This document shows, piece by piece, positions 33,025-62,084 of a stretch of 64,000 nucleotides of DNA; the stretch's first letter is position 1, and each line of letters opens with the position of its first letter. This DNA comes from Lepraria neglecta. Lineage: Eukaryota > Ascomycota > Lecanoromycetes > Lecanorales > Stereocaulaceae. The notes beneath the pieces are model-generated. The model was given only the letters and a program-made list of their open reading frames with translations, was not told the origin of the DNA and made no database searches. The translations under genes were made by a program, and so were the position numbers. The stretch lies in contig CM065646.1 in the NCBI GenBank assembly GCA_033220425.1, forward strand, positions 2,797,501 to 2,861,500, given 5' to 3'.

Positions 33025-33802
33025 TCACTGCAAACAAATCCCCAAAAACTCCTCCCTACTAATCGCCCCATCCCCATCCAAATCAAACTCCTCAATCATA
33101 GCCGCCAACTCCTCCTCCTCCAGCCCCTCCCCCAACTCCCTCGCAACCCGTCTCAAATCACTCAAATTAATCTTCCCCTTCGCCCCCTCATCAAACAATT
33201 CAAACGCCCTCAGTATCTCCTCCCTAGGATCTCTCGCCAATATTCTTTGCGCCATTATGGCCTGGAATTTCTCAAAGGGGAGGAGCAGGCGCGTGTGGGC
33301 GTAGGGAGAGGGGGCGCTGGAGGAGGAGGAGGGTGATTGGGGGGAGCCGTGTGTTTGGAGGATGGAGAGGATGTCAGCTTTTGGGAGGTCGAAGCCAAGG
33401 GCTTTCATTGCGACTTTTAGTTCGTGGTAGTCTATGCGTTGATCTTTGTCTAGGTCGAAGAGCATGAACTGCGCATACCATTATATCAGCCCTCTGTTCC
33501 CTCTCCACTCTCTTCCTCCGCTCTTATTCCACCCTTGCGTCGGCGCTTGGGAAATGAAGGGGGGGTTGGGTACACACCGCCTCCTTAATCTCCTCCCTCT
33601 GCTCCTCCGTCAACTGATTCTGCTCTTCCCGTTCCAACCGCTCTTTCTCCATGCGCTCTCTTTCGCGCTCTAGTCGTGCGTTCTCGCGCTGCTGTTGCGT
33701 TGTGGATGCGCCGAATGTTGTGCCGAGGGAGCGGTCGGGCAGTTTGCCTAGGTTGGAGGTGTAGGGTCGGGAAGGGAAGGAGGGGTGTGATGAGGATGCC
33801 AT
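33025..33802 (-). CDS. cdc31: Centrin (CDC31-type EF-hand protein)
   Basis: Two exons, 33802-33578 and 33468-33025, join in frame to 222 residues. Centrins are calcium-binding proteins of the spindle pole body, needed for its duplication. They also act in mRNA export and DNA repair complexes. After a ~55-residue N-terminal Arg/Glu-rich extension come the centrin helix [17 protein letters not shown] and EF-hand 1 loop [12 protein letters not shown], followed by [10 protein letters not shown], the centrin hallmark. EF-hand 3 ([12 protein letters not shown]) lacks some calcium-ligand acids. EF-hand 4 ([12 protein letters not shown]) is canonical. A Ser/Pro-rich insertion (about residues 115-135) sits between hands 1 and 2. 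Length is slightly above the usual 160-195 because of the extension and insert. The dehydrogenase gene is divergent, sharing a 370-bp promoter. Confidence 0.9.
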
Positions 33803-34172
33803 TGGGAGGAATTTGGAGGGTGTGGGTGCTCTAGTCCTGGTGTTTTGTCAAGTGCCAATCTGAGAGACGCGTTGTAAAACGCGATTTTAGCGGCCAGGGT
33901 CGGCTTGCGATGACGTGCGGTGACATGAGTGTGGTGCCCTGACCAGCTTATCTATTTGCTCAAGCTCCACGCTTCTTCAATACAGTGCCAATTGAGCTTG
34001 TAGTTGACTTGAGAAAGACTCGGCTTATATTGAGAAATCAACTTGAAATTGCACTGAAAAGCTACGGCCAAGGTAGGCGGTTCATCTTCCATACCGCTGC
34101 CATTTCCATTGCCAGTGCGCCAACCAGACATTAACAAAATACGTTACGCTAACATCGAGAACAGCAACAACA
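33803..34172. promoter_or_regulatory. Shared divergent promoter region (centrin / dehydrogenase)
   Basis: These 370 bp lie between two divergent ATGs and contain no supported ORF. I see no strong known element. Confidence 0.45.
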
Positions 34173-35041
34173 ATGCCAACCGTCCTCATAGTCGGAGCCA
34201 CACGCGGCCTCGGAGCCTCTCTAGCCAAACAATACGTCTCTCAAAGCGCCCGAGTCTTCGCAACCTCCCGCTCGAAAGACACACCCGAATCCACAAAAGA
34301 CATAACCTACATCCCCCACATTGACGTCGCAAAAGAAGATGCTGGCTCCAAGTTAGCCAAACACCTGGGCTCCATATCCCTTGACACAATCATCATCACA
34401 GCCGGCTACTTCGGTACAGAATCCTTCGACGAACCATCATGGGAGAAACAAGTCAAGATGTATACAACGAGCGCCATTGGGCCTGTGTTTATTATTCATC
34501 ATCTTGTGAAGGCGGGGCTGTTGAAAGAGCGGAGTAAGATTATACTTGTGAGTAGCGAGAGCGGAAGTATTACGCTACGGCATGAGAGCGAGGGAGGGGG
34601 AAATTACGGACATCATGCGTCTAAGGCGGCGGAGAATATGGTGGGGAAGCTGTTGAGTTTGGATTTGAAGGAGAAGGGGGTCGCGGTGGGGATTGTGCAT
34701 CCGGGGTTTATGAGGACGGAGATGACGAAGGGGGTGGGGTTTGATAAATTCTGGGACGACGGTGGAGGTAGGAAGTCTTTCCCATTATCTCGGAGCCTTA
34801 TATTAACGGGGATTTGCAGCCGTGACACCCGACGAAGCAGCAGAGTCACTGATCAAGTTTATTGAGACATTCGATATAAAACACACGGGCGAGTACTGGG
34901 CGCCTCGAGGACCTAGGTAAGCATCACCTGGCTTTAAACATATACGCATATTACTCAGCTGAAATCCCGCGCAGAGACATCGGTACCGCGGAAGCAGTGC
35001 TCGGCAAAGATCTTAGTACGCCGCTTCAACTACCTTGGTAG
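34173..35041 (+). CDS. Short-chain dehydrogenase/reductase, C-factor-like
   Basis: Three exons, 34173-34767, 34820-34916 and 34975-35041, join in frame to 252 residues. The protein is a classical Rossmann SDR with nucleotide-binding GATRGLGASLA at residue 8, an acidic end to strand 3 (HIDVAKEDAG), the structural IIITAGYFG (NAG position) and active-site Ser in ILVSSESGS. The usual YxxxK is replaced: where YxASK is expected the sequence reads HHASK (after GNY), so histidine occupies the catalytic tyrosine position, while the lysine is kept. A PGFMRTEMTK block follows, as in C-factor-type SDRs. The substrate is unknown. The missing tyrosine suggests altered or no redox activity. Motifs are otherwise complete. 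Confidence 0.85.
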
Positions 35042-37049: not shown

Positions 37050-39582
37050 CTAGACAAGTCTAACTATCTCCTCCTGGCCGTCTTTGGCGCATTGCGTATG
37101 GATGCTTCCAATAGTCACGCGTTCTACAAGCCCAATTTTCGGTAGACGCCAGATCAGCATCACATTGACCATACACCATCCATCCCACGCACCAACACGT
37201 GAGTCGAACTGCCAACTATCGTCCTCCTCGGACTTAGGCCTCGTTTTCGACAGGAGAATCATTTTGACCTTCTCATCCAGCTCGTCGAGGAGCGGTACGT
37301 GCCAAGCAGTCCCAACTCGCCGACGGCTTTTATCGAGAAGCCAGATACGTTGACAGCCTTCATCGTTTGTAGATTGATACTCTGAGACCGTGGACGAGAG
37401 CAGAAGCCTTACAAGCAGACTTTTGAACTGCAGTATAGCTGGTCCATCTGTGTTTCCTCCACGGAGGTTATTGCCCGGGTGCGTTCGGTATGCCAAGCTC
37501 AGTACCATCGGTTTCGCCCAATGCAAGTTGTGCATTATATCTTTGTAAGCGGAACAGTCCTGCGGTGCATATGGCGGTGCTGGTTCGAGAGTGGGGTATC
37601 CCACCACAGTTGTTGTCTTGTTATTTAGGCCGTATCGCACAACATGTCGTGTTTTGTTACCTGGCGTTACCATTTCGAAGCGGTCAACGAGAGGGTTAAA
37701 TCCCTCCAGTATGTTTGTCTAACATGTCACTGGACCATGCCAGGCTGACCACGCGTAGGTTGGAAGGCTTAGATTATGTTCACCTTGCGGGATTGACGGA
37801 TCTCCATTGCTTAGGAACTTGCGCCGAATTACGCCTCTATGGGGCCACAGAAGCACGAAGTCAATGACATCTTCGATCAAGCCGTTCGAGATTTTCCATG
37901 CTAAAGGAGCATGCATCACCTCCGATATTCCTTTGAAAGCTGCTAGTATATCGGTCGGAAACGTCATGTTCCTTGCGGTGTAGCTCTCGACGATCCTTGC
38001 ATACATCTCAAAGGTCAATTGCCAGTCCCGATTGTTGGCTGGAGACAGCCTTCATTCTATGGCTTGGGAGTTAAAACACGTTTCTTTAGTGCTTTCAATC
38101 TCCTTCAGGGTGAGCGCTGGAATCTCTGAGACAGTGTCCTCATGAGCTACATCTGTGGCGCCGCGAAAGTGAAACTGATCGTTGCCAAAGATGATCAAGG
38201 TGTGCGAGAGCTCTGCTTCTTGCATTGTCCAAGCTCTCGTGTCCCATGTCGGCTTTTCCAAAGTCTGTGTTATGCTTGATGAGGCAGCTACGAGACGTAT
38301 GCCACCAATGTTCCGTACCACCTGGCTGGGTCCGCTGATTCGAGCTGTAAGCGACTGGTCGTCATAAGGAGTTCGGACGGTTTCATTATCGGGGTGGAGA
38401 TGTGAAAATAGAATATCTGAGAGGCTTCTCTCTGTAGCAATCAGAGTAGCTATTGCACTTGAGTAAGTCTGACCGATTTGCTCAATTTGTATAGCTTTGT
38501 CTCTGGGATCGTCTTGGATGATGCATAGCTGATCTACCCAAAGTACAATATCTTACCCATTGTCGAGGCCGTTGAGATCTCAGACCAGTTCGATAGCATC
38601 TCTAATGACAGCTGGTATTGCATCCCATTCTTTGTTCAACGCTCCTTCCTGGAATAGTATTGATTCGTTCGACTTGGAGAGCTGTAAACCCTGCTTGCCT
38701 CCCCAAACATAGCTGAGTGATATGTGGTTTAATCGGCAGAACAGGCTCCACCTGGTCAGACACATCCGCTCGGTATCAATAAATCTCAAGCCTCTTGGAC
38801 CACCAGGGTTCTCACTAGTCCATCGGATTCGAATAGTTTCACAAAACCAATGATAGTACCTACAAGTCTTGATCCATGACCACAGAAGACTTGGTGAGAC
38901 TTGATTGCCAATGAGTCGTCATTGATACATCGGATATTGCCCTAGGAGGTGAGCATCGTTTGCTAAGAGGCGAATAAAGGTTCGATCTCTCTCCGCTGTC
39001 CTTATCGCTTATGGGAATAGCACGTTGGTGTAGATCATCATCCATCGTACATTCTGCTTGTCCTTGTTACCGAGAGAATTGATATCCCAAGACTGCGAAG
39101 CAAGGTAAAATGAACCAGCCACAGCACTACGCACGTAGATCTTGACAGGTTGATCGTGTATCATGGCAAGTGAGTTTCTGGCATCAAAAATTTCTGGCAG
39201 CCTTGCTTTGAGAGCGGCGACAACGAGCTCGCAGAAGCTGCAGTCAGATTGTGTGATAACATCAAGAGTACCCAGCAGGTGTTCTGTGATTGAACTCAGC
39301 TCACGAGTCGCAAAATACAGGTTATCTTCCTATTGAAAATCCAAATATCGTATCACAAGCAATGTGCAGGTGCAGAACTTGGGTCAAGCCCCCACACACT
39401 TTCAAACGCCACCCATGAACCGTACCCCTATGGCCAATTTCATGAATTGGAGCTGTGGTATCAAAAATCCGGGACAACGAACCGGATATCTCATCCGTTG
39501 GAGATTCGATAAAGTACCCTAGAATAGAGAGCGTGCTGCATCTTGTGCACAGTGGTCCTGGCGTTGCCGCAATATGTGGCAC
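37050..39582 (-). pseudogene. HET-domain (heterokaryon incompatibility) gene, decayed
   Basis: HET proteins trigger cell death when incompatible hyphae fuse. The minus strand shows the N-terminal Cys pair (PLCTRCSTLSIL, about 39550), HET motif 1 ISLSYVWGG (about 38700) and motif 2 LWVDQLCIIQDDPRDKA (about 38530). It then shows IGQTYSSAIATLIA and the motif-3-like DTRAWTMQEAELS, and a long C-terminal part to the stop at 37050. From 38789 to 37050 the reading frame never shifts, yet it contains four internal stops: TGA 38580-38582, TAA 38553-38555, TGA 38052-38054 and TAG 37719-37721. Each can arise from CAA/CAG/CGA/TGG by one C-to-T or G-to-A transition. The 5' part is in other frames, possibly across introns. 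The gene cannot give a full protein. Confidence 0.85.
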
Positions 39583-40054: not shown

Positions 40055-41203
40055 ATGTCCTCGTCTGCTACGATTAAGAAAAAGGACCATGCGATACAGG
40101 CAGCCCACCATGTTCATTACCCATTTTGGTTCGGAGGATCAGCGTCATGTTTTGCTGCTACGGTGACACATCCATTGGACTTGAGTACGAGCTTCTAAGA
40201 TACATCCAAATTATATTGAATCCACGTAAAGCTAATTGAGTCGATAGTCAAGGTAGAGGATTACCCTCAGCCACAGTTAACCCCTCCAGAAAGAACCTCG
40301 CGCTTACACAGGGCAGGTCCGCCTCCAAACCCGCACCCCAGATGGCCCAAAGGGCATGCTCGGCACCTTCCTACATATCCTCAAGAATGACAATGTGTTG
40401 GGACTTTACCGCGGCGTACGTCCTCCTTCCGCTCCAAAATCCTGGCCTCCTTCGCCTTTTCCTTTGTTCTATTCCTGTCTAGCAATGCACAATGCTAAAA
40501 TCCTTCTCAACAGCTCTCCGCCTCCCTCCTCCGCCAATTAACCTACTCCACCACGCGCTTCGGAATCTACGCCGAGCTAAAAGAGACTTTCACCACTGCG
40601 CGTCACTCCCCCTCCTTCGCCGGTCTGATAGCTATGGCCTCCACTTCGGGGTTTTTGGGTGGCATAGCCGGCAACCCAGCTGATGTGCTTAATGTACGCA
40701 TGCAAAACGACATGTCGCTCCCGGCCGCCCAAAGAAGGAACTACAAAAATGCTGTCGACGGACTATTCCGCATGTCGAGAGAAGAGGGCTGGCGCAGCTT
40801 GTTCAGGGGCGTGTGGCCGAACTCGTTTAGAGCAGTGCTCATGACAGCCTCCCAGCTTGCCAGCTACGACGGGTTCAAGCGACTATTACTTGAAAAGGCT
40901 GGAATGGAGGACGGTCTGACGACGCATTTCACCGCATCTTTCCTGGCGGGGTTCGTGGCGACTACCGTCTGCAGCCCAGTCGACGTGATCAAAACGCGGG
41001 TGATGAGCGCAAAGGAGAAAGAAGGCTTACTCGTCTTACTACGACGAACCATTGCACACGAAGGTGTCGGATGGATGTTTAGAGGCTGGGTGCCTAGCTT
41101 CGTGAGATTGGGTCCACATACTATCGCTACGTTTCTCTTTTTGGAACAGCATAAGAAGATATACCGGCATTTGAAGGGGGTAGAGCATGACGACAGCACT
41201 TAG
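40055..41203 (+). CDS. dic1: Mitochondrial dicarboxylate carrier
   Basis: This inner-membrane carrier exchanges malate or succinate for phosphate. Four exons join to 307 residues: 40055-40184, a 5-nt micro-exon 40248-40252 (tcaag), 40317-40415 and 40514-41203. The three carrier signatures are complete: PLDLIKVRLQTR, in which the I-K pair is contributed by the micro-exon, PADVLNVRMQND (characteristic of DIC1) and PVDVIKTRVMSA. Each repeat also has the GxxxG-type and aromatic second-helix words (FWFGGSASCFAATVTHP, STSGFLGGIAGNPADVL, FLAGFVATTVCSPVDV). Six transmembrane helices are expected. A further ATG 40 codons upstream is in frame but unlikely. No damage is seen. Confidence 0.9.
40248..40252 (+). 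other. dic1: 5-nt micro-exon of dic1
   Basis: The bases tcaag are flanked by cgatag and gtagag, proper AG and GT borders. Without them the first carrier signature lacks two residues and the frame breaks. With them the signature PLDLIKVRLQTR is exact and all exons sum to 308 codons. Confidence 0.8.
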
Positions 41204-42037
41204 TGGGGAGTATTGGTAATCCTAATGTCTGTTACCTTTCTGCGTTGCATATACAATTTTCTCTACTTGTTTAGAGAGCAAGGTGTTGGTCGCTGCATGC
41301 ATATAGATTGATCGGCATTTTCAGGCGTTTAGAAACACACTTAGAGGGCTGCGTGCCAGAGCTCTATTGGCAGTCAATTTTGTCCCACTTCCAGGTTTTC
41401 AGCGTCCATCTGTCCAATGTAAAAATGTTCTTGACTTTGGTTTCCAATGCTGTAACGCCAAATGCGGCTATCTGGGCGCATAGACCTAACGCTAAAGGCG
41501 ATGTCCCCTCGGTACCTGCATGCAGCAGCGAGACTATTGATGCATTATCGCGTCAGAGAACATAACATCGGTAGCAATATGCAGGCGGATTAATCGGCAA
41601 CTGAAAATTTAAAATTGGATTTATTGGGGGCGGCCCAAGTTGTTTATCATTACAAGCTACTGAAATGGCAAATATTACACATTACACATTACCGCCTTCA
41701 TTGGCAATTCAAAAAAAAAACAGAATCAGCAAAAGATGAAAACAAGAAAAGAATTGGGAGCGCACCGCTGGGGGCTCAACCAGCTGCCTAGCACATCTCA
41801 ATCACGAACTCTCCATACACCAGCAAATCAAAAGAACTAAAACCAGTAAAATCATTAACAGACATTGGGAGCGCACCGCTGGTGGCTCAACCAGCTGCCT
41901 TGGCAAATCTCAATCTAGGTGCTCTCACTTAACACTCCCATCCACGTTCGCAACCGCCGCAACCGTCGTCCCAGTTTGGGGTCTAGCACCAGGTTAGTTC
42001 GTCATACTCGACACCAAGGGACAAATACACCTTACGC
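41204..42037. repeat. Intergenic with two copies of a ~38-bp hairpin-bearing repeat
   Basis: The sequence tgggagcgcaccgctgg(g/t)ggctcaaccagctgcct occurs at about 41755 and 41866, 111 bp apart. On the minus strand it contains gctggt-tgagcc-accagc (second copy), a perfect 6-bp stem with a 6-nt loop. The first copy keeps 5 pairs. It lies just downstream of the secreted repeat gene on that strand and could be part of its 3' UTR. The rest of the interval holds no gene. Confidence 0.7.
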
Positions 42038-42739
42038 TTACACATTAACAGTAGGTGACACAGTCGGGCTCAGGTCAACCGAGTTCCCATCTAGCGTGCC
42101 TGTGTTCTTGTTGTTGTTGCCGGCTACGTTGTCGCTTAGTGGGCTCAGAGAATTAGAGATTGCGTTGGCGGGATTGGATTGGCGCTTGCCGTTGCCGTTG
42201 AGGAGGCCAGTATTGGAGTTGCTGTTCCCGGCATCGTTGGCTGAAAGGGGGGAGACGGAGTTGGAGACGACGTCGACAGGGTCGTTGTGGCGGCGGGGAA
42301 GGGTGTTGCCGTTGAGGAGGCCAGTATTGGAGTTGCTGTTGCCGGCATCGTTGGCCGAGAGTGGGGAGACGGAGTTGGAGACGACGTCGACAGGGTTGTC
42401 GTGACGGCGGGGAAGGGTGTTGCCGTTGAGGAGGCCAGTATTGGAGTTGCTGTTGCCGGCATCGTTGGCCGAGAGGGGGGAGACGGAGTTGGAGACGACG
42501 TCTACCGGGTTTTCCTGGCGCTTGCCGTTGCCATTCAGTAGTCCAGTGTTGGAGTTGCTGTTGCCGGCATCGTTGGCCGAGAGCGGGGAGACGGAGTTGG
42601 AGACGACGTCGACGGGGTTGTCTGAGGGGGAGGAGGTGGTGGGGAGGGAGTTGGTGCCGGCTGTTTGGAGAATGGAGACTGGCAGGGAGACGGCAAAGGT
42701 GGTGAGGGAGAGGAGGGTTAGGAGGGTGCGGGTGTGCAT
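42038..42739 (-). CDS. Secreted tandem-repeat protein with dibasic cleavage sites (RiPP/KEP-like)
   Basis: This intact single-exon ORF has 233 residues. Residues 1-18 are a clear signal peptide (MHTRTLLTLLSLTTFAVS). Five tandem units follow (residues 41-76, 77-114, 115-152, 153-188 and 189-219). The first four share the core NPVDVVSNSVSPLSANDAG then NSNSNTGLLNGN almost perfectly; the fifth is diverged. Units are separated by GKRQ or LPRRH, giving dibasic pairs K73-R74, R111-R112, R149-R150 and K185-R186. Signal peptide plus near-identical repeats separated by Kex2-type sites is the layout of Kex2-processed repeat proteins, including dikaritin RiPP precursors and alpha-factor-like pheromones. 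The core has no Tyr or Cys, and no ustYa/ustYb-type gene is near, so a cyclised RiPP is not demonstrated. Product and role are unknown. Confidence 0.8.
   Translation of the reverse strand: MHTRTLLTLLSLTTFAVSLPVSILQTAGTNSLPTTSSPSDNPVDVVSNSVSPLSANDAGNSNSNTGLLNGNGKRQENPVDVVSNSVSPLSANDAGNSNSNTGLLNGNTLPRRHDNPVDVVSNSVSPLSANDAGNSNSNTGLLNGNTLPRRHNDPVDVVSNSVSPLSANDAGNSNSNTGLLNGNGKRQSNPANAISNSLSPLSDNVAGNNNKNTGTLDGNSVDLSPTVSPTVNV
42083..42619 (-). repeat. Coding tandem repeat, five units of 108-114 bp
   Basis: DNA units encode the 36- or 38-residue repeats of the secreted protein. Units 1-4 are nearly identical at the nucleotide level, including the linker variants, which implies recent expansion or homogenisation. 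Confidence 0.9.
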
Positions 42740-43880
42740 TGTGTTTGGGTGCTGGACGGTTGGTCGAAGGTGGTGAAAGTTGTTTATGGTGGAGTAGGGG
42801 GGACTGAGAGCAGCGGAGATGAAATTGAGATCGACGGAATTGGTAGTGTTCTTTTTTCACTCGGGGAACGGAATGAAGAGAGAAACTATGGTCGGGAAGA
42901 GCTCGTCTTTATAAAAAAAAAGGAAATGGCACCATTTACGAATATTTACCTACCAAGCAAGCTACCTACCTCATCACGCAATTCCCAGTTGCCAACACTG
43001 CAGGCACAGTACATACGCATAACGCATATCCACCACGAGTCGAGCGCATATATGCAGGTACACCGGCGTAGCTGCACCGGCGTAGCTGCACCGGCATAGC
43101 TGCACCAGCGCCCTCTACGACATCAACGCGGGAACACGAGCAAACGAAACGCATCAAGAAATTTTGCAGATCCGCTTTTGTAGATTGCATATGCGCATTT
43201 CCTCTATTGTATTGACTTTGAAGATCTGCAACTGAAACAGCTAGGTTGGGACGCTAATTCGGGCCTGAACGGGAGAGGAACGGACGGTGTGGAACTCTGT
43301 CTGGGCGATCCTTTACTTGGTGGGCGAATGGGAAGCGAGAGTGAGATTCTGATGCCGAGGCTGCATATGGAGATCGCCGGAAGAAGGAAATGAGGCGGTC
43401 TGTTTGGAGATGAGTTGTGAGGCGTTCGCGGTAGTTGCCGTCGAGAAAGCGTTTCGGCAGACTTTCTCCTTGAAGAATTAAGTTTTGAGCTAGCTGCCCT
43501 TAAGGCAGACGCCGTCATGAATTCTGCCATAGTCATGCTGTGCGAGCAGGCACTGCTAGACTTGTTAGGTCCTTGTTGCCTAACCATTTCCGCGAGGTTT
43601 CAGTCTTACCTGAAAGACCTCACGCAGGATGATCTTGTGGCGTGATCTCTCGAGACCCGATATGATCGACTCCAGCTCTGCCAAGCAGTCATCCGGTCAT
43701 CCCAACATTCAACTTGGTCACCAAAGATCCACGCCATTCGTCTTAAGATTTTAGAGGCTGGTAAATAAGCAGGTGATATTTTCAATCAGGCGCCGGGATT
43801 TTGACAGACTTTCGCCGCCGTGAGTTGGCATTAACCCCACTGGAGCTCTAACATTGTAAACGATCAAAGAGGAAGTTGTG
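42740..43880. other. Intergenic with a 15-bp tandem repeat
   Basis: At about 43059-43108 the unit ctgcaccggcgtag recurs about 3.5 times. A minus-strand ORF at 43204-43587 (Ser/Pro-rich) has no recognised feature. Nothing else is seen. Confidence 0.5.
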
Positions 43881-46068
43881 ATGCCTCCTCGATTCAAGTT
43901 CGACTACTCGTATGAAAGAGAATTAGACCTAGACTCCATCACATCAATCGAAGATGACGACGTACCCATTCCCCTAAAGCTAGACGCTGACGTTAACGCC
44001 ACATTAGTACTGCATCGTTTTGTGTGCCGAGCTATTTGAGAAGCATGGAAAAGCCCTTAAAAACACCTGCAATCATCATAGATCGAGCCTTGAGCTTGAG
44101 GCTTTAGCTAAAAGGGGGTGCCATTTGTGCTGTATTCTGTGGGCAAACTTACGAAACGAAGGAGGTCTGGACAGGCTGAGGCGCATACAGCGTGAAGGTA
44201 AGCTTCGCTACGACGGCCCACAGACCAGCTACAGCATTCATAAAACGAGGTGATGAAGCGAATTCTCGTCCTGGCCGGATCCAGCTTCAGATATGGCTTG
44301 GTTACAAGCCACGTCATCCGCATAAGGCATGCAGCTATGGGGAGTGCATTCTCAAAACTACTGATAATGATGAGGGCTTTCTTGAAATATGCTCATTCCT
44401 GAGTCTGTCAACCCTTTAGCATCCTAAGACGTCACCTCAGTATTCTACTAATACTAGAAAGCTGGGGAGGCACCGCACCCTCCAAACACTATGACAGTCT
44501 CTACAGTGTCGGATGCCTCATTCGCTTAGGCTTCAAGTTGGCTATCCGACTGTCTTTCCAACCATGCAGTATGTCGTTATGTAGCAGACGCATGCTTCTC
44601 AGCTCCAACGCGAGTCGTTGGCGTTGGGCTTCCAGGTCAGACCAAATTCCCGCGGCTTTACGTATCGTCCGAAAAGGATCTGAATATGCAGTATCTGGCG
44701 TTGAGTCATTGTTGGGGAAAGGTAAAGATACCGACATTAACAATGCTCAACTTGCACACGATGATGGCGAAAATAGACTTGGAGAGCCTGCCAAAAACAT
44801 TTTAAGACGCTATTCTTGTTACTAGACGCCTGCAATACCGATATCTCAGGATTGACTCTCTGTGTTTTACAGGATTCTATGGAAGACTGGGAAAAAGAAG
44901 CTGCTACGATGAGCGATGTCTATAATTACGCTGTGCTCACTATTGTGGCTTCTTGGGGTAAAGATAGCAGCACTGGTTGTTTCGTCGAAAGACCGCTTTT
45001 GAGCAAGTGGTCGTGTAGAATCTTTGAAGATGCACGGAAGGCGGTCTATGTCTCTCCGGAAAGCGTTGATGAGCCAAAATATACCACTCCTCTGCCGCTT
45101 GAGAAAAGAGCCTGGGTTGTTCGGGAACGAGCCCTTCCAGCGAAGACGCTTTCTTTCCGCGATCTGGAAATGCAATGGACTTGTCTTGAGTCTCGTGGGA
45201 GTGAAGCATGGTCTCTTACCGGAGCGGGACCGTCGGACAAAGAACTTCCATCATCGGAGAAGCAATCCTTTCGCGATCTCCTCTCCATGAAGCCTGGTCT
45301 CTGTGGAGCTGATATAGGCTACATGTGTGGCTTCTACAAGCATTGGCGGCCGCTAATTGCGCTATATACTGCCTGCAGACTTACTTTCCCGGATGATATA
45401 TTAGTTGCTATCTCCGGCCTCGTGAAGAGGATTGAGAAGCAAACAGGGCTTACGAATATCTTCGGAATGTGGAAAGACTTTCTTCGCATGGACCTGATGT
45501 GGGAGGGCACGCCGGGTTCGACGAAAAATAGGTGAACGTCTCTTCGATATCCTACTTGGTCTTGGGCGTCGGTGGCAGGGACAAACGTATCGATGTTGAA
45601 TTTACCAGAAGAGGGCCAGTGGAGGACGACTGTTCTTCCTTGGTCACTAATGAAGCGCGATTTTTATCTCTTCGCACTTGCACCGCGCCTCCTGGAGGAC
45701 ATTTTAAGCTATCTTTGCCCATGCACATCACTGTGTTGGAGACTGAGGGTCGATTTCTCTACGTTAAACAGATGGAAACAGCTTACTTACCACGATACTA
45801 CGGACGCTTCGAATGGCGTAGAGCGCAACGAGCTGATCGTTTCAAATGTTTGCCAGACACCAAAGACGACCTCCTATACTACCTGCATCTAATGCGGAAT
45901 GTTGATTGTAGAACAACGTGAAGGCGATCAAACCGTTTTCAGGGGTTGCTCTTGGCTCGTCTGCAGTCCGAGTCAAATTATCTCATTCGCTTGGGATATT
46001 GGTTCCTGGTCGTCAAGGACCCTTCAATATTCCAAAATGTCGAGAAAAGGACCATCAGCCTGATCTAG
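43881..46068 (+). pseudogene. Second HET-domain gene, decayed
   Basis: ATG 43881 opens MPPRFKFDYSYE. After a frame change the N-terminal HET region gives ELEALAKRGCHLCCILWANL (about 44090-44150). Motif 1 appears as YLALSHCWGK (about 44690) and motif 2 as RYLRIDSLC (about 44845), where a tryptophan has become arginine. These are followed by DWEKEAATMSDVYNYAVLTI, the motif-3 area KRAWVVRERALPAKTLSF, and RYPTWSWASV (about 45550). The end reads GLLLARLQSESNYLIRLGY to TAG 46066. In-frame stops (TAA 44803, TGA 45533, TGA 45919) and frame changes near 44005, 44865 and 45600-45900 break it. It differs from the minus-strand HET remnant at 37-39.5 kb and is not a simple copy of it. Confidence 0.85.
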
Positions 46069-48326: not shown

Positions 48327-48986
48327 ATGGCATCATTCGACAACATTGAGCGCCCAGAAGAAATGATACCTACTGTAGATGAGATAATCGAAAAGGAAGA
48401 TCATCTCATTGCAATGGCAAATGAACACATCCATGCCCAGCGTGTGGCTTCATGCACCTACGCCCAGGGGGGCGAACATAGCATCAACTGTGGTAGGGCT
48501 GTTGATGCAAGCGTGCTAGAGTACCAACACCTTGCCAGCAAAGGTCTTATCCGAGTCAAAGACTACGAAGAGTGGGGTTGTGTGGGCCCGGAAGAGGAGC
48601 ATTACCACCGAGACATCGCCAACACGAGAGTCAGGAAGGCTTTTATGCCAATGGACTGGAACAAAGGTTTCACAGGTCGAGGTAGTGAGTGTACCAAGCA
48701 TTCTACTCTTTTTGGTCCAAGTACTGACAAATCTCTAGTGAGCAAAACGACTTTGGAAATCACACATGCAATTGGGCCATCCGACGAGATCGAACCCACC
48801 GGTATGTCGCCGTTCGACTTGAATGGGCTGCCGTCGGAGCGGGGAGGTAGTAGCAGAAGTATCGGGAGTACGTCCTCTGTTAGTGAAGATGAAGAGGAGA
48901 GGAAGCTGAGTGTCAAACAGCGAGTGCGCACAACGTCGTCTCGAACGTGGAAGAGCTTTCTCCGAATCCTCGATCCGAGATACTGA
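48327..48986 (+). CDS. Hypothetical acidic protein with optional in-frame intron
   Basis: ATG 48327 (caagATGG context) opens 219 codons: MASFDNIERPEEMIPTVDEI, a His/Cys-containing middle (SCTYAQGGEHSINCGRAV), DYEEWGCVGPEEEHYHRD, then a Ser-rich end. A 57-bp segment (48682-48738) has good intron borders (gtagtg...ctctag) and no stop, so both spliced (200 residues) and unspliced (219 residues) forms are in frame. No family is recognised. Its last 40 bp overlap, in another frame, the open stretch that leads into the Myb-like gene, so the two may belong to one transcription unit or one misjoined gene. Confidence 0.55.
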   Translation: MASFDNIERPEEMIPTVDEIIEKEDHLIAMANEHIHAQRVASCTYAQGGEHSINCGRAVDASVLEYQHLASKGLIRVKDYEEWGCVGPEEEHYHRDIANTRVRKAFMPMDWNKGFTGRGSECTKHSTLFGPSTDKSLVSKTTLEITHAIGPSDEIEPTGMSPFDLNGLPSERGGSSRSIGSTSSVSEDEEERKLSVKQRVRTTSSRTWKSFLRILDPRY

Positions 48987-49270
48987 ACGGTGATGAAGTC
49001 GGCCCGTTCGGGGAGAGGAGCGTTGATGAGGATCTTCAGCCAGTCCGGGAGAGGAGAGGAGCCGTCGTCTTTGGCCATTCCAACGAGAGAGACGATGATG
49101 AGGCAGTCGGCCCATTCGACGAGACCATACTACGAGTCGAACCTACCCCCACCGACGCGAGGAATCACCTTAGCAACAATGCTAACCGTAGCTGCTTACT
49201 ACTTGACGAACAAGCGGTGGAGCCATCCAACGAGAGGAGTCCGCCAGAACTGGTCGACATTACCAGCCAG

Positions 49271-50995
49271 ATGATGAATGCCCTCGACGAGGTCTTCAGC
49301 GAAGCTACTACCGGAGCTATATCCAACCCTACAGAAGGTCCCCTCGAAGCCTCTACGAGCGGAGCTACACATCCTTCAGTAGACGATTTCAAGACGACAC
49401 CCATTATTGGAACGAAACGAGGGCGACAACCCTCCCCGGATTCGGAAGACGAGGACTCGGAGGTTGAAGAGTGCGTATCGAGGCCCAAGCGACTATGCAT
49501 CTCGCGAATTAATGGAACAAACACCTTGGGCCAAGTACGAGACATCGTGAGAGACATTGCCAGCCGAGACCCACAACTACACAACAATCCCACTACTACC
49601 ATAGCGGGCCCCATACCCCAAGCGAACAAGAAGCGAGACCGGGAGACTTTCGAAGACACCTACCCAGAAGAGGAGAGTAGAGTGTTGATAAAGAATACCA
49701 ACACCAAACGCGCACGCCGTTCTGGATTGAGAGAGACTGCATCCTCTGAAGACATCCTGACAGAGATCCATAGCCAAGGATGTCGAGATTCCGCATACTC
49801 TACCACCACCACCACCACCACCACCACCACCGGCAAGAGCGATGCTAGTACCGGAGAGACGAGCACCGCAGAGACACTAGAGGACATCGAAGCGACTGAC
49901 AGCAACGCTTCGAGCATGGACAATGGGAACGAGTCGAACAACAACGCTCGGCAGGCCACCTCAACTCATCGTGTCCATCACATCAAGCTAGAATTTGACG
50001 AGGACGAGGACGACAACGTCATCGATAACACACCCCCAATGGATGTACGGCCCACATACCAAGATACCGTGCTTTATAGGATCAAGGACCACCCAGGTTG
50101 TTTCAAGAAACGCCTCTTTTCCGAGCTCAACGAGGCTGATGGGATTGTTGTGATGTCAGTCAAAGGCAAAGGCAGCAATCCCCCACTCATTCTCAGGGAC
50201 AACATTCCCACACCTTGGACAGCGGAGGACGACGAGAAGCTCCGCTTCTGGGTCCAAGATTATGTGACCCGCAATTGGCTCCTAATAGCTTACTCCTTGA
50301 TGCGAGGTGACGAAGACTGTAGAGTGCGATATCGCGAGATCATTGTCGCATTGAACAATCGGGCTGGGAGACATCAGTATGCTGGGCTTCCGAAGAGCCT
50401 GATTCCTGTCACTGCCAACACCCCAGCACCGGATGCGGCACCAACGGAGTCATCGGCAACACGAACACCACCAGTAACAACGCAAGAAGCCTTGACATCT
50501 CATGCTCCAGAAGGGGAACCACCAGCACCACCGGCTCTACCAACACCACCAACCATAACAGCATCATCAGTGGCAGCAGCAGCAGCACCACCACCACCAC
50601 CGAAATCGGGTAGAGTCTTGAGACCTCGCATTCATCACGCAGTGCCCAGATTCCAATGTGGCAACATTATATATGACACCAAGGCTAGGAGCCTCCCCAA
50701 GGTCTCGAAGAAGGGGACCCTGGTGGACAGCAAGGGCAACGTCATCCTAGGCACAGAGGGAGAGATTAGAATAGCCTTAAAAAATACGCAGCTGAGGAGG
50801 AAGGCTGGCCAGAAGCTGGTGCTGAATGCGGGGCCCGATGTACAAGACGAGGAGGACGACGCGAGCACGAACGACGTGCTGAGAGTGAGGGGTGCGGGAG
50901 CTGCCAAGCGAGGTGGCAAGGGAAAGGGTAAGGGCAATGGCAAGGGAGCACGGCGGTATGGAGTCGATCGACGGGCTGGCAATCAGAAGAAGTGA
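49271..50995 (+). CDS. Myb/SANT-like nuclear protein
   Basis: The frame is open from 48947 to 50995, but its first ATG is at 49271, giving 574 residues; a 5' exon could extend it. Near residue 310 the sequence TPWTAEDDEKLRFWVQDYV, followed by NWLLIAYSLMRG and DCRVRYREI, has the spacing of tryptophans and the C..R pattern of a Myb/SANT helix-turn-helix. Upstream are acidic and Ser/Thr-rich stretches, a putative nuclear signal (RPKRLCISR) and a poly-Thr run coded by (ACC)n. Downstream are Pro/Thr-rich tracts and a basic Gly-Lys C-terminus (GGKGKGKGNGKGARR). The layout suggests a chromatin or transcription factor; the target is unknown. No disruption in the frame. Confidence 0.65.
   Translation: MMNALDEVFSEATTGAISNPTEGPLEASTSGATHPSVDDFKTTPIIGTKRGRQPSPDSEDEDSEVEECVSRPKRLCISRINGTNTLGQVRDIVRDIASRDPQLHNNPTTTIAGPIPQANKKRDRETFEDTYPEEESRVLIKNTNTKRARRSGLRETASSEDILTEIHSQGCRDSAYSTTTTTTTTTTGKSDASTGETSTAETLEDIEATDSNASSMDNGNESNNNARQATSTHRVHHIKLEFDEDEDDNVIDNTPPMDVRPTYQDTVLYRIKDHPGCFKKRLFSELNEADGIVVMSVKGKGSNPPLILRDNIPTPWTAEDDEKLRFWVQDYVTRNWLLIAYSLMRGDEDCRVRYREIIVALNNRAGRHQYAGLPKSLIPVTANTPAPDAAPTESSATRTPPVTTQEALTSHAPEGEPPAPPALPTPPTITASSVAAAAAPPPPPKSGRVLRPRIHHAVPRFQCGNIIYDTKARSLPKVSKKGTLVDSKGNVILGTEGEIRIALKNTQLRRKAGQKLVLNAGPDVQDEEDDASTNDVLRVRGAGAAKRGGKGKGKGNGKGARRYGVDRRAGNQKK
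49799..49831 (+). repeat. (ACC)n microsatellite coding poly-Thr
   Basis: About ten ACC triplets in a row encode a Thr tract inside the Myb-like protein. Its length is likely to vary between strains. Confidence 0.9.
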
Positions 50996-53668: not shown

Positions 53669-54551
53669 ATGCCTGTCAATGGGGAGTCGAAGTTGCACTT
53701 CGATTGCATAGAGGATACTGTCGAAGCATTCAGTATGTAACCAAATCAGCGTCCTTGTGCCCTTGTTTCAATTCCTGCACCGGAGAAACTCGATGTAAAT
53801 CTTCTTGGAGCACCTCGCACTGAAGATTTATTGGCACCGACTGACCGAACTTTTTTAGGAAATGGCGACTTCATAGTCGTCCTCGACTCTACAGACCGGG
53901 AAAACGAAGGGGACCTCATTATCGCTGCAGAAGATGTTACGACTGAGAAGATGGCTTTCATGATCAGGCACACTAGGTAGCCTCTCTGCCATCGCACGCC
54001 TCACTCTGAGCAGCCGCTAAAGTGTTGATTTCAGCGGCCTGATCTGCGCCCCAATCCCTCCAACTCTCACTGCCACCTTCGATCTTCCTCAAATGGTGCT
54101 CGAGAACGCCGATCCAAACCGCACTGCCTATACTATTTCTATAGATTCATCAGATCCTTCTGTCACGACTGGCATATCAGCTCAGGACCGCGCCCTCACG
54201 TGCCGTACTCTTGCATCCCCTTCCTCGAATCCTGTGTCATTCAGGCGACCAGGACACGTCCTTCCCCTGCGCGCTCGTGCTGGGGGGATAAGAGAACGGC
54301 AAGGACATACGGAAGCTGCCGTGGAGTTCTGTCGATTATCAGGCAAGCGACCGGCTGGTGTCATCTGCGAGCTGGTTGAGGATGGTGAAGAGGTGGAAGG
54401 GTCCGCATTGAGAAGAGAGGGAGGGATGATGAGAAGAGATGGATGCTTGAGATTTGGAAAAAGATGGGGCCTGAAGGTATGTACGATTGAGGATCTACTG
54501 GACTATGTGAATAGACAAGAGAAAGGTATACACGTCAATGGAAATGTTTAA
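53669..54551 (+). CDS. rib3: 3,4-dihydroxy-2-butanone 4-phosphate synthase
   Basis: The enzyme converts ribulose 5-phosphate to formate and the four-carbon unit of the riboflavin xylene ring. Three exons, 53669-53732, 53859-53976 and 54035-54551, join in frame to 232 residues, the usual fungal length. Motifs: [11 protein letters not shown] at the start, the acidic metal/active-site loop DRENEGDLI (residues 34-42), [40 protein letters not shown] and [10 protein letters not shown] (151-160), where His and Glu act in catalysis. All are intact. The ATG 53669 is the first that gives the conserved N-terminus. It is a second riboflavin gene besides the RIB2-type deaminase at 21.6 kb, without physical clustering. 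Confidence 0.93.
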
Positions 54552-54694: not shown

Positions 54695-55510
54695 TCAAAG
54701 CTCTTCGCAATAGTCATCATCATCATCATCCTCATCAACCACATCCTCCTTGGTCGAATCAGGACCACTCGCCGGCACAACACTGCCACTCGACAAAGGA
54801 ACAATGCCAGTCACCGAACTGCTACTCGTCGTTGCGCTACTACTCATGGCGGACGTAGCAATCTGAAACGCACCACCCACATTCGGCGTCCCACTCGCAT
54901 CCAGTACAACTTTTACCCCAGAAGCCTGCCCCGTCAACGAAAAACTCTCCGTCCCACCCCCCAATGTCCCCAATTTCGACCCAAACGGCCCATCATCCAA
55001 CGCACTACAATCATCTAACCTCTGGGCCAACCCCATCACCACCCCCGCCGCAATCTGCCCAAAAAACTGATCCGTAACACCCGTCGCATTACACAGATCA
55101 AAATGCACTTGCTTCCCATACCTCGTATTCACATTCGCGGTATTAGACCCCTCTTCCTGGTCGCAGTAGCCAGCGTCTGTGCATTGGTCGTTTACTTTCA
55201 CTACCACCGGCGTGCCGAGTTGTAACCCGTTGCTGGGGAATTGGTCGACGAGAGGTTGCAGATGCCAGCATTGACCGCAGCCGGCGCCGACGCCGTCGAT
55301 GATAGGGGCGCCGGAGGCATAGGTTATGTTGTTTGCGGCTGCGTAGCCGGTTCCGTAGGTGCCGACGGCGGAGGGGCCGCAGGCTACGGAGGGACCGCAG
55401 TTTTGGTTCCAGGTGAATGAAGATGTTAAGACGGGGTATGAAGCGGTTGTTAGGGTTGGGAGGAGGGAAGCGAGGAGAGATAGGACGGCAGGCGAAAGTG
55501 AGCAGTGCAT
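54695..55510 (-). CDS. Expansin-like / double-psi beta-barrel secreted protein
   Basis: This intact single-exon gene encodes 271 residues. It has a clear signal peptide (SLSPAVLSLLASLLPTLTTAS), then a domain with paired cysteines of the expansin/GH45-like double-psi beta-barrel: NQNCGPSVACG, YGTGYAAANN, GAGCGQCWHLQPL, VVVKVNDQCTDAGYC and KQVHFDLCNATG. Such proteins loosen or bind plant or fungal wall polysaccharides. Some are swollenin- or endoglucanase-like. A Ser-rich linker (about 215-250) leads to a very acidic tail (DEDDDDDDYCEEL) in place of a binding module or GPI signal. The Asp-rich C-terminus is unusual for the family. Catalysis cannot be judged from sequence. Confidence 0.8.
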   Translation of the reverse strand: MHCSLSPAVLSLLASLLPTLTTASYPVLTSSFTWNQNCGPSVACGPSAVGTYGTGYAAANNITYASGAPIIDGVGAGCGQCWHLQPLVDQFPSNGLQLGTPVVVKVNDQCTDAGYCDQEEGSNTANVNTRYGKQVHFDLCNATGVTDQFFGQIAAGVVMGLAQRLDDCSALDDGPFGSKLGTLGGGTESFSLTGQASGVKVVLDASGTPNVGGAFQIATSAMSSSATTSSSSVTGIVPLSSGSVVPASGPDSTKEDVVDEDDDDDDYCEEL

Positions 55511-56455
55511 TTTGAGGGTTGAAAAGTAGGGATATAATGATTGTGAGGGAGACTGAAGATGTTTCTTGTTATGAAGGTATTTAATGAGTGGACGATCCTG
55601 ACCAGAGGACCTTAAGGTAGATCAAATGAGTGGAATCTCCGTCCGGGACGTTGTGTTTCTGATAACGATGGGGAAACAACTGGCCCCAGGGGTACGGCTT
55701 CTATATATTCTCTCTCACATGAAGCTTGCCAGCCCCTGCTGAGTGCATGACAAGGAAGCCAAATGTTGGCTCCCATGCAGTAATACGGAATGCGGTGGCC
55801 CAACATGGCACCTCGTGACCTACCCGCTCACTACCGCACGAAACATTGGAGTCTCAATATCCACCTGATGGCGGCTCGGAGCATTAAATCCTATGGCTGC
55901 TTATGGAAGGAAGGTACCTCCACGTGGAGCGGCAATGGCCCGTTTGTTGAAACGGAGCTGGATCCTTTGACCCCCACGCGGGAAGTCAAGTTTGTTTGGC
56001 CGCCTCATTGAGGTGGATATACGAAGGGACTTTGGCGATCGTATAAAAAAAGTGCATTGTGCGTTGGTTCACTTGGTTGAGTTCTGGACTTGCTGCGCGG
56101 GCCTTTCTTTTATTGCGCTTTTGGCGCGCGAAGCAGTTGTCGAGGTTGCGGCAAAGAGAAGAAAAAGACGAGCAAGACTGTGATCCATTGGAGCATTAAA
56201 CGGGTATTGTTGGAAGTACATTACACACAACATAAGTTGATGTACAAGCAAATGAACAAATTGTTGGTACACGGAAACTCGTCAGACAACCTGCCAGGTG
56301 CTACACACTTCGGAGCGTTTCTTGCGCTTGAAATGCCCCAGACTTTTATCCATCCCACCCAATGCTTTTCCGACTGTCACGTACTTCGTAAATCCAGTAA
56401 TAATCCAGATTATTACTACTAATATCGACTATATCTCAACGAAACTATCCCCGAT
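55511..56455. other. Intergenic, nothing recognised
   Basis: Small ORFs (55790-56011, 56090-56422) have no domain. Confidence 0.5.
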
Positions 56456-58708: not shown

Positions 58709-58984
58709 GGCTTCGGGGTTTACATAGTGTTCGTGATAGCGTTACGCCCGGTATGGTAAAGGGAAGGTAGGTCCTTGACGTCAAGAAGGGATTGAAGCCG
58801 ACCAAAATATCCCCCTTGTTAAACAGTCTTACACTTAGGAGGAGTGTTTATTCAACGGCGAAACGGGCAACAGAGATATTGTGATAAATACTGTGAGCAG
58901 CTATAGCCCAATCAGGCTCCTTAATGCTGCGCTCCTCCTAGTGCGGGCAGCTAGAACAGCTTCCTCCCTGCTATGCTCCCCCAT

Positions 58985-59110
58985 GCTCCCTTGCAGTTCC
59001 CTCCTGCTCCCTCGATGCTCCCTCCTGCTCTCTCGATGCTCCCTCCTGCTCCCTCGGTGCTCGCTCGATGCTCCCTCCTGCTCCCTTGGTGCTCCCTCAG
59101 TGCTCCCTCT
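58985..59110 (+). repeat. CT-rich 21-bp minisatellite
   Basis: About five imperfect units of ctccctcctgctccctcgatg, with variants gctctctcgatg, ctcggtg and cttggtg and shortened units near the end. On the plus strand it encodes an artefactual Leu/Ser/Cys repeat ORF. Confidence 0.85.
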
Positions 59111-59567: not shown

Positions 59568-62084
59568 TCAACGGACGACTTTCTTGCATGTCTCCAGTAT
59601 CTTTTCCAATTCTTCGCTATCCTCTACTCGACCGAATTTCTCTCCATGCTTATCCAGTAGATGCTTCACAATGTCCTTTTCCTGGAGGTATTTCTTCTCT
59701 CCTCGTGGACAGCCTGGAACTTTGCACTGATACCAGGCGCCAAAGCAGGCCCTCTCCCATCTTTGTTTGTTGTTCCGAGCTCGGTCTCTTCTGCCGTCAA
59801 CAAGGATCTTGGCGCATTCCTCGATCCAGTCTCTGACATGTTCTTGGGCAAGGTAGGCCTCGGTGTGCTTGCGAATTGTCTTGATGGTCTTGTTCTTGGG
59901 TAGGAGCCACTTGGGTATGCCAGCCAAATCATCGTCGGTGGGCGATCGGCCTGTTGTTGCGTCGTCCACATAGATGATAGTACCACTCTCTTTGGCCTCG
60001 TTGACAGATGCTGCGTTGGGTCGGTCGCAGCTTGGAGGGTTCGATTCTCGTTGGGCTTGCTCAAGTGCAGGACGACTGTCTGGCGGGACTTTGTCTTCAG
60101 AATCGCCGTTCCCGTTCTGGGAATGTTCATCTTTCTCCTCCGCTGATTGGCTTTCCCGAGCCTCAGCGCCAGGTTGTCCTGCATTCTTGGGCCGAGCTCT
60201 TGCCTTTCGAGACTTCATCTTCCCGATAAAGACTCCAAGATTTGTTCTTAGGGGATGTCGAGCGCGCCATTCGTCCAGCTTCATCGCGTCGAGGCCATAT
60301 TCCACGTTGAATCTCTGATAGCGGAATCTATCCACAGGGTCGAGAGCATTTTTAGCTTTGATCATGTTCCCGTGGGTACGCTCGGAATCAGTAGCCCATT
60401 TCATTGCAAAATTCAGATAGTTCCAATACCGAGATAGCCCCTGACCTTGGATACGACTGATCTTATTGTTCTTTCCAGTTCCAACGCTCACTATGATCTT
60501 TGCGCATTTCTTAGCGTTATTATTCATTTTTCTGACTTCATCGTAGATTTCCTCGCATGGGTTGTTCGTTGCTCCAAATCCTCCATCCACGTACTCAAGG
60601 CCGTCAATGACTACGGGCTTGAAGTAGGTCGGTGCTGCGGCAGTAGCACGAGCGACTTGCCATATAGGGACATCATGGGCTTGAGCAGGATTCCGGTCAA
60701 ACTTCTGTGCTTCTAGGTCTTCACTCTTGTGCAGATTCTCATAGGTTCTGAACAGATATGGCGGTTCCACACCTGACAGTCTCTGCTTCTGAATTGCGAC
60801 AACGAGCCTAAAAAGGGTCAGAAAGAATTAATGAGGATGCGCAGGTCTCTTACACTCTGCATCTATTCTCGTCAAAGGCGAAATTCCTTCCACCGGGAAA
60901 ATCAGCCACCTTCGGTATGTATCTCTTGACAACGTCTCTCACGATTTCCTGTAGGACCTTATGATTGTATTTATCCCTAGGCCAGAAAAAGGGTGATCGG
61001 AGATGGAACCATCGACTGTGTCCGAAGACCTTAGCACCTAGTGTTTCGTACTCTTTGATGCAGTCGTCGGTATTCATTCGCAAACGTCCAAGCATGATAG
61101 CAATTAGACTATGATGAGCGTCAGCATGTATATAATGCTTTGGGGATTGATCCTTACCCTCCAGTGCTCGTACCTGCCATATAATCAAAGTAGTGGCATG
61201 GTAGCCATGGAGATGAAGCTGTCTTGGGGCTTCCAGCAGCATTCTGCTTGTCCGGGGGTGCTTCTTCTGGGACTAATCTTGGGGGCGGCTGAAGTGGATG
61301 ATAGCTGGATTCGGCTGGCCCGTCGGCTTCGTTGGGTCCGGGCAGACTCGCAGTCTCAAGTCTGCCAATTGCCTCCATGAGCTTTTGGATGATCAATAGC
61401 GCAGAGTAGCCTCGAATGCCGCCTCCATCTGCGCGAAAAGTAGACATGTAAGCTTGAGCTATGCCATTGCAAACGACATATGCAAAGTACTGCGAAGGCT
61501 TTGAAGGGATTCTTTTTGGGTAGGACCTTGCATTAAGACAAAAGCCTTATTGGTTCATAGTAAGAAGTAGCGCCCTTGCTGAGGCAAGTGTATTTGATAT
61601 CAAAGAATGTTGCAGATAAAAGCTAGTGAGACATACCTAATGATAGTATTGCCTTCTGATCCCAGACGGCCGTCTCTGCGAAGCTCTCCGAGTTCTGCGT
61701 TAAGTTGGTCGAATGTCGCCTCGGAATCTGACCAAGGATTTGGTTCTCGACAAGCTTGTTTTTGTGGGAAATTGGTGGAACAGACTTGATCTTCTTATCA
61801 TAGGTTCGCGCCCTGTTCGCTTTGTTTGAAGGATTGGGCTCATTTTCCTCCGCTGACCCTTCAGCCAGAGGCTGATTGGTCGAAATTTGTCTGGAGCTTT
61901 GACGCTGTTGCTGTCGTCCATCTTGGAAATCGAAGTACGCAGTATCCTCCTGTATTGGCTCTGGGGAGGTGGACTGTTCTCGAAGCAGGCTATGTTCGCT
62001 TATAGCTCCAAGTCCATCAACGCTGGTGTTAAGGTTTGTAAGAGTTTCGTCATTGGATGCAGATGGGGCTGTTGGGTCGGTCAT
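59568..62084 (-). CDS. Patatin-like phospholipase, intact, with C-terminal zinc-finger-like region
   Basis: Four exons, 62084-61637, 61428-61158, 61108-60854 and 60807-59568, join in frame to 737 residues. The N-terminal ~150 residues are Ser/Gln-rich. The patatin domain follows: AILSLDGGGIRGYSALLI (oxyanion hole, formed across intron 1), HYFDYMAGTSTGGLIAIML (nucleophile Ser, formed across intron 2), PPYLFRTYENL, IWQVARATAAAPTYFKPV and the catalytic-Asp motif YVDGGFGATNNPCEE. A basic/acidic linker follows, and near the end a C2H2-like CKVPGCPRG, then IVKHLLDKH. Patatins release fatty acids from phospholipids. In fungi they occur as effectors of incompatibility and NLR systems as well as in lipid turnover. 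ATG 62084 is the first ATG in the open frame. The decayed paralogue at 1.1-2.9 kb shares the first intron positions. Confidence 0.9.

Follow-up and report, generated by a model that had tools for sequence, protein, structure and literature searches.

A gene of Lepraria neglecta that probably encodes a Kex2-processed repeat protein

A gene on the minus strand of a 64,000-nucleotide stretch of Lepraria neglecta DNA (contig CM065646.1, positions 2,797,501 to 2,861,500; 'the window' in what follows) probably encodes a Kex2-processed repeat protein (KEP) that would release three linear, acidic peptides of 34-36 residues, its secretion and cleavage being read from sequence features. KEPs are an already described class: one survey counted 1193 in 226 species (Le Marquer et al., 2019; PMC6339444), and another, which has 838 types, found 7878 in 1345 strains, 2560 of them without homologue (Umemura, 2020; PMC7329392). 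We file the gene as a member of that class. The four best copies of its repeat encode the same peptide despite drift in their DNA, and this suggests that the peptide is itself of importance once released.

The precursor and its units

The open reading frame runs from ATG to TAA (42038..42739, minus strand, as are all the features of the gene given below) and, read as a single exon, encodes a KEP-type precursor of 233 residues. Its first 18 residues (42686..42739) resemble a signal peptide by hydropathy: the most hydrophobic 11-residue segment in the protein, which begins at residue 14, scores 1.93, against 0.9 past residue 30. By the -3,-1 rule, signal cleavage would fall after AVS. A pro-region follows (residues 19-40; 42620..42685), then five repeat units, then a C-terminal tail (residues 220-233; 42041..42082).

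The core of the repeat is a stretch of 31 residues rich in Asn and Ser, NPVDVVSNSVSPLSANDAGNSNSNTGLLNGN, which starts at residues 41, 77, 115, 153 and 189, hence with spacings of 36, 38, 38 and 36. It is the same in unit 1 (residues 41-71; 42527..42619), unit 2 (77-107; 42419..42511) and unit 3 (115-145; 42305..42397). Unit 4 (153-183; 42191..42283) replaces the first residue, N, by D, and 30 of the 31 residues are common to cores 1-4. The core of unit 5 (189-219; 42083..42175), NPANAISNSLSPLSDNVAGNNNKNTGTLDGN, has diverged: it differs at 11 of the 31 residues and is identical to the consensus at 20. On the DNA, Tandem Repeats Finder reports a period of 114, 3.8 copies, 89% matches and a score of 638. 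The sequence-only reading of this locus had described an intact frame with four alike units and a diverged one, and a core devoid of Tyr and Cys. Both descriptions are borne out; indeed, the whole precursor lacks Tyr, Trp and Cys after residue 18. None of the 43 Asn residues of the mature precursor lies in an N-X-S/T sequon, while shuffles of the whole sequence average 9.3 sequons; this absence is weak when taken per unit, since 14% and 7% of shuffles are also without any, and the copies are not independent.

The 3' end of the frame accommodates a second gene model. GTAAGC overlaps the stop codon, and the stretch of 59 nucleotides that runs from there to GAACTAACCTGGTGCTAG has ACTAAC inside and TAG at its end. 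Judged by the splice consensus, this makes a candidate intron of 59 nucleotides (41983..42041; GTAAGC ... GAACTAACC ... TGCTAG). The stop of the frame may therefore lie inside an intron, in which case splicing would put an 18-residue tail, ...TVNVPQTGTTVAAVANVDGSVK, in its place, with a candidate exon 2 (41925..41982) finishing a split Val codon and adding PQTGTTVAAVANVDGSVK and TGA. The repeat units are unchanged in both models. An alternative splice from the donor GTGTAA, leading to a Cys-containing tail, was set aside because that donor looks poor by the same consensus.

Upstream of the ATG, a possible TATA box, TATAAAG, can be read from the sequence about 170 bases away (42907..42913). A 14-base minisatellite, CACCGGCGTAGCTG, stands in 3.6 copies at 43061-43110, some 320 bases upstream and likely in the promoter. 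Just 3' of the gene, at 41753-41915, two 37-base copies, 97% alike and 111 bases apart, start at 41753 and 41864 and have a 13-base continuation. The sole match of this stretch in the genome is itself, its fold is not unusual (z 0.53) and it has no Rfam match at E up to 1. Elsewhere in 41200-43300, Rfam gives three sub-threshold matches; two fall within the coding repeats and concern a snoRNA family of trypanosomes (E 0.12). A tRNA search of the window with bacterial settings found none.

Dibasic sites and predicted processing

Only four dibasic pairs occur in the precursor, and all four stand at unit junctions; the sequence-only reading had likewise seen KR or RR between the units. These putative Kex2 sites are KR at residues 73-74 (GKR-Q; 42518..42523), RR at 111-112 (LPRR-H; 42404..42409), RR at 149-150 (LPRR-H; 42290..42295) and KR at 185-186 (GKR-Q; 42182..42187). 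Eight of the nine Lys and Arg residues found after residue 18 sit in these pairs. GKRQ forms linkers 1 and 4, and TLPRRH forms linkers 2 and 3; the two types are unlike in length and sequence, and a dibasic is present in both. Two types of linker had indeed been recognized at the outset, but they do not alternate, as was then proposed: their order, GKRQ, LPRRH, LPRRH, GKRQ, is nested. Shuffles of the mature sequence contain four dibasics in 8 of 100,000 cases, a figure that overstates significance because the repeat copies are not independent.

No dibasic separates the pro-region from unit 1, and none follows unit 5. Cut at the four sites and stripped of its basic pairs, the precursor would yield fragments of 54, 36, 36, 34 and 47 residues, among which only units 2-4 would be released on both sides. 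Two surveys have set rules for such proteins. The first asks for at least four fragments after KR or RR cleavage, at least three of them alike, and for repeats making up at least 15% of the protein (PMC6339444); the second asks for at least three repeats of 8-100 residues between Kex2 sites (PMC7329392); both call signal peptides with SignalP. Applied to the precursor by hand, and not via the FIMO and seed-shift programs of the surveys, the fragment and repeat rules of both place it within the class on paper, with five fragments and enclosed units of 36, 36 and 34 residues, and its repeat share comes to 44% if counted as 3 x 34 residues, or 67% as 5 x 31. Like the KEPs of these surveys, it has three or more nearly identical units bounded by KR or RR, repeats make up much of its length, and its N-terminus looks like a signal.

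The genome also encodes a kexin. Its single P-domain match lies in and beyond a 488-residue open frame (contig C5, 4339941-4341407) that matches the kexin entries 2id4, 1r64 and 1ot5 with E values from 3.5e-150 (2id4) to 1e-149, and furins at about 1e-105; by eye, the next frame, which overlaps it, shows a run of hydrophobic residues and an acidic tail. Taken together, the junction-only dibasics in two unlike linkers, the kexin frame and the repeat rules of the surveys support the Kex2-processed repeat architecture that had been proposed for this gene.

The route that we infer for the precursor, from secretion through cleavage and trimming to a linear end product recognized outside the cell, would begin with removal of the signal, followed by late-Golgi kexin cuts after KR and RR. 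A Kex1-type carboxypeptidase would then trim the basic residues, freeing peptides of about the following sequence: QEN..NGNTLP (36 residues), HDN..NGNTLP (36 residues) and HND..NGNG (34 residues). Their linear masses, calculated ahead of any pyroglutamate formation, are 3596.7, 3591.7 and 3337.4. What is left would be one piece from the N-terminus, in which unit 1 stays joined to the pro-region, and one from the C-terminus, in which unit 5 stays joined to the tail. The N-terminal Q of two of the products would be expected to turn into pyroglutamate, and the tandem copies would raise the dose of peptide per transcript. Linear KEP peptides with pyroglutamate N-termini are on record in Coprinopsis, whose KEPs have also been produced in Pichia pastoris (PMC9769878).

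Sequence change among the copies

The DNA of the units had been described as near-identical, and this had been put down to homogenization or recent expansion. A comparison of the copies contradicts the first statement and does not support the second. Any two of cores 1-4 are set apart by 3 to 11 differences in 93 bases, and the four together have 12 variable columns, 11 of them at third positions. Counting alleles minus one, there are 13 synonymous changes against a single amino-acid change, where about 24 sites are synonymous and 69 nonsynonymous; the binomial p value of 2.4e-7 takes base differences as independent and codon use as unbiased, and rests on small numbers from the copies of this one gene. 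Pairwise pS within cores 1-4 ranges from 0.13 (units 2 and 3) to 0.42 (units 1 and 4), and pN from 0 to 0.014. Because gene conversion or recent duplication would keep the synonymous sites alike too, this pattern suggests that copies 1-4 are older, and that amino-acid changes have been removed from them by strong purifying selection. Against unit 5, cores 1-4 give a higher pS (0.61-0.76) and a higher pN (0.27-0.28), which suggests that this unit is older or freer than the other four. As it departs from them at more than a third of its residues, the requirement for the sequence is not absolute.

Since the four copies agree in all but one residue of the core although their synonymous sites have drifted, the peptide would most likely act outside the cell by sequence-specific recognition, as a signal or as an agent against other organisms; a bulk surfactant is the less likely role. 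A more specific proposal, which we regard as possible and still rather doubtful, would see in the core an undescribed type of messenger: linear, secreted, near sequence-exact, 34-36 residues long, constrained almost throughout, produced from a stand-alone gene that belongs to no cluster, and unlike pheromones, dikaritins or repellents. When the six KEPs studied in Coprinopsis were deleted, growth and fruiting remained normal, and the authors propose communication with the biotic environment (PMC9769878). A developmental signal is therefore an unsafe default for the KEP described here.

Other readings of the repeats

A repellent comparable to Rep1 of Ustilago maydis would use the freed peptides of 34-36 residues in another way, as surface-active, amyloid-like fibrils on aerial hyphae. 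Rep1 is cut into ten peptides of 35-53 residues and one of 228, and its repeats are amphipathic and imperfect (PMC4617103); repellent peptides of 37 residues are also mentioned in one of the surveys (PMC6339444). The size of the peptides and their predicted release at Kex2 sites fit this model, and AlphaFold2, run on the precursor as a single sequence, places short strands in every unit, but with a mean pLDDT of 47.6 and a pTM of 0.36. The core of the Lepraria precursor, by contrast, is nearly invariant in units 1-4 and without clear amphipathicity: in a simple test of unit 2 (four angles by three windows, 3000 shuffles), the hydrophobic moment was not clearly above that of shuffles, the lowest count being 249 of 3000, at the helix angle with a window of 11. 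Unit 2 has no aromatic residues either, and the three peptides that would be freed have a GRAVY of -0.51 to -0.59 and a charge of about -3; a curli-type repeat expression had no match in the precursor. The near-exact keeping of polar residues would moreover exceed what a surfactant needs, and we consider a repellent unlikely.

The protein might also work uncut, as a secreted disordered repeat protein, for example a component of the wall or matrix, in which the dibasics would be incidental. Cleavage of the precursor is indeed a prediction, the modelled fold is of low confidence, the sequence is rich in Ser and Thr, and so possibly O-mannosylated, and unit 1 has no dibasic on its N-terminal side. 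Against this stands the confinement of nearly all basic residues to the junction pairs, kept in two unlike linkers, which makes an uncut protein quite improbable.

An alpha-type mating pheromone precursor would have the same layout, with a signal-like start followed by a pro-region and by units that recur between KR sites, as in ascomycetes. The known alpha pheromones are 9-24 residues long (PMC6339444), well below the 34-36 residues found here; the residues that follow the four sites, QE, HD, HN and QS, do not form the XA or XP signature of Ste13; and the precursor contains neither the PYGxPxG motif nor the two-Cys motif given for such pheromones in that survey. A pheromone is thus very improbable. 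Searching the genome for the Pleosporales pheromone motif gave 0 matches. The two-Cys pattern, searched as W-C-x3-G-x2-C-W only, gave 13, against 4 in a control, and none of them in tandem. Seven of these 13 correspond to one near-identical dispersed sequence, TGGTGC(T/C)GGCAGGGCGGATGCT(G/A)CTGCTGG, found at seven places on contigs C1, C2, C4, C6 and C8 and perhaps a dispersed repeat.

A dikaritin-type precursor, with a core cyclized by UstYa oxidases, is barely credible, because no UstYa match was found within 366 kb and the units have neither Tyr nor Cys. It is true that precursors of ustiloxin and phomopsin share the KEP layout (PMC7329392), that in them, as in the precursor of asperipin-2a, a signal peptide precedes copies of a core set between Kex2 sites, and that the genome has at least 42 exon-level UstYa (DUF3328) matches. 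These matches, a lower bound, include none in the window, and the nearest detected one on the same contig is 366,664 bases away. The typical units of ustiloxin, phomopsin and asperipin-2a measure 13, 14 and 8 residues (PMC7329392), which makes those of Lepraria about 2.4 to 4.5 times longer; as to Tyr, 65.6% of the repeats beside DUF3328 genes, and not all of them, contain it in the same survey. The misfit of the core to dikaritins and pheromones, suspected from the sequence at first sight, is borne out by its length, its composition, the distance to UstYa and the missing Ste13 signature.

Surroundings and relatives of the gene

The window has 70 frames of 110 codons or more, with little overlap among them; 30 of these, besides that of the precursor, were scanned against Pfam. 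Matches near the gene are to an EF-hand protein (33028-33480), a short-chain dehydrogenase (34077-34862), a mitochondrial carrier (40499-41200), a Myb-like protein (48893-50992), a DHBP synthase (54021-54548), an expansin-like protein (54698-55621) and a patatin-like protein (59571-60827). Frames with a heterokaryon-incompatibility (HET) domain flank the KEP gene on both sides (38055-38552 and 44777-45532); together with the UstYa matches of the genome they would fit a filamentous ascomycete. Nothing around the gene points to a dikaritin-type cluster, and the gene appears unclustered. On this one point it agrees with type G-9 of one survey, present in 14 genera with 0 of 48 members associated with DUF3328 (PMC7329392). 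Two other repeats were seen in the window: a 147-base unit (49 codons) stands twice in tandem, with 96% matches, at 19199-19489, inside an open frame (18670-19551) that has no Pfam match at E up to 0.01, and a degenerate 21-base array of the CTCCCT type lies at 58964-59109.

Within the genome (42.0 Mb, 11 contigs), the precursor is single: DNA and protein searches at E up to 10 return only itself, the protein search with 1 match out of 3 scored candidates. Pfam and NCBIfam, searched with the same E limit of 10, give a single match, Pax7, at E 1.9 and below its cut-off, bearing in mind that the filters of HMMER drop most matches above about 0.1. Comparison with PDB sequences gave 0 matches, and pattern searches retrieved 10 stretches from viral contigs and 50 from bacterial and archaeal genome contigs, none of which was confirmed. 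The search for homologues thus covered the fungus's own genome, PDB, Pfam and NCBIfam, viruses, and bacteria and archaea, a scope that does not imply orphan status. Six fragments of the core were found in none of the paper texts searched.

Significance

The functions of KEPs have been called largely unknown (PMC9769878). A comparison, within one gene, of synonymous and amino-acid change among tandem copies can tell the precursors of selected peptides from low-complexity repeats. Since the outcome is clear for the KEP gene of L. neglecta, it makes a good candidate for peptide synthesis and a search for the target.
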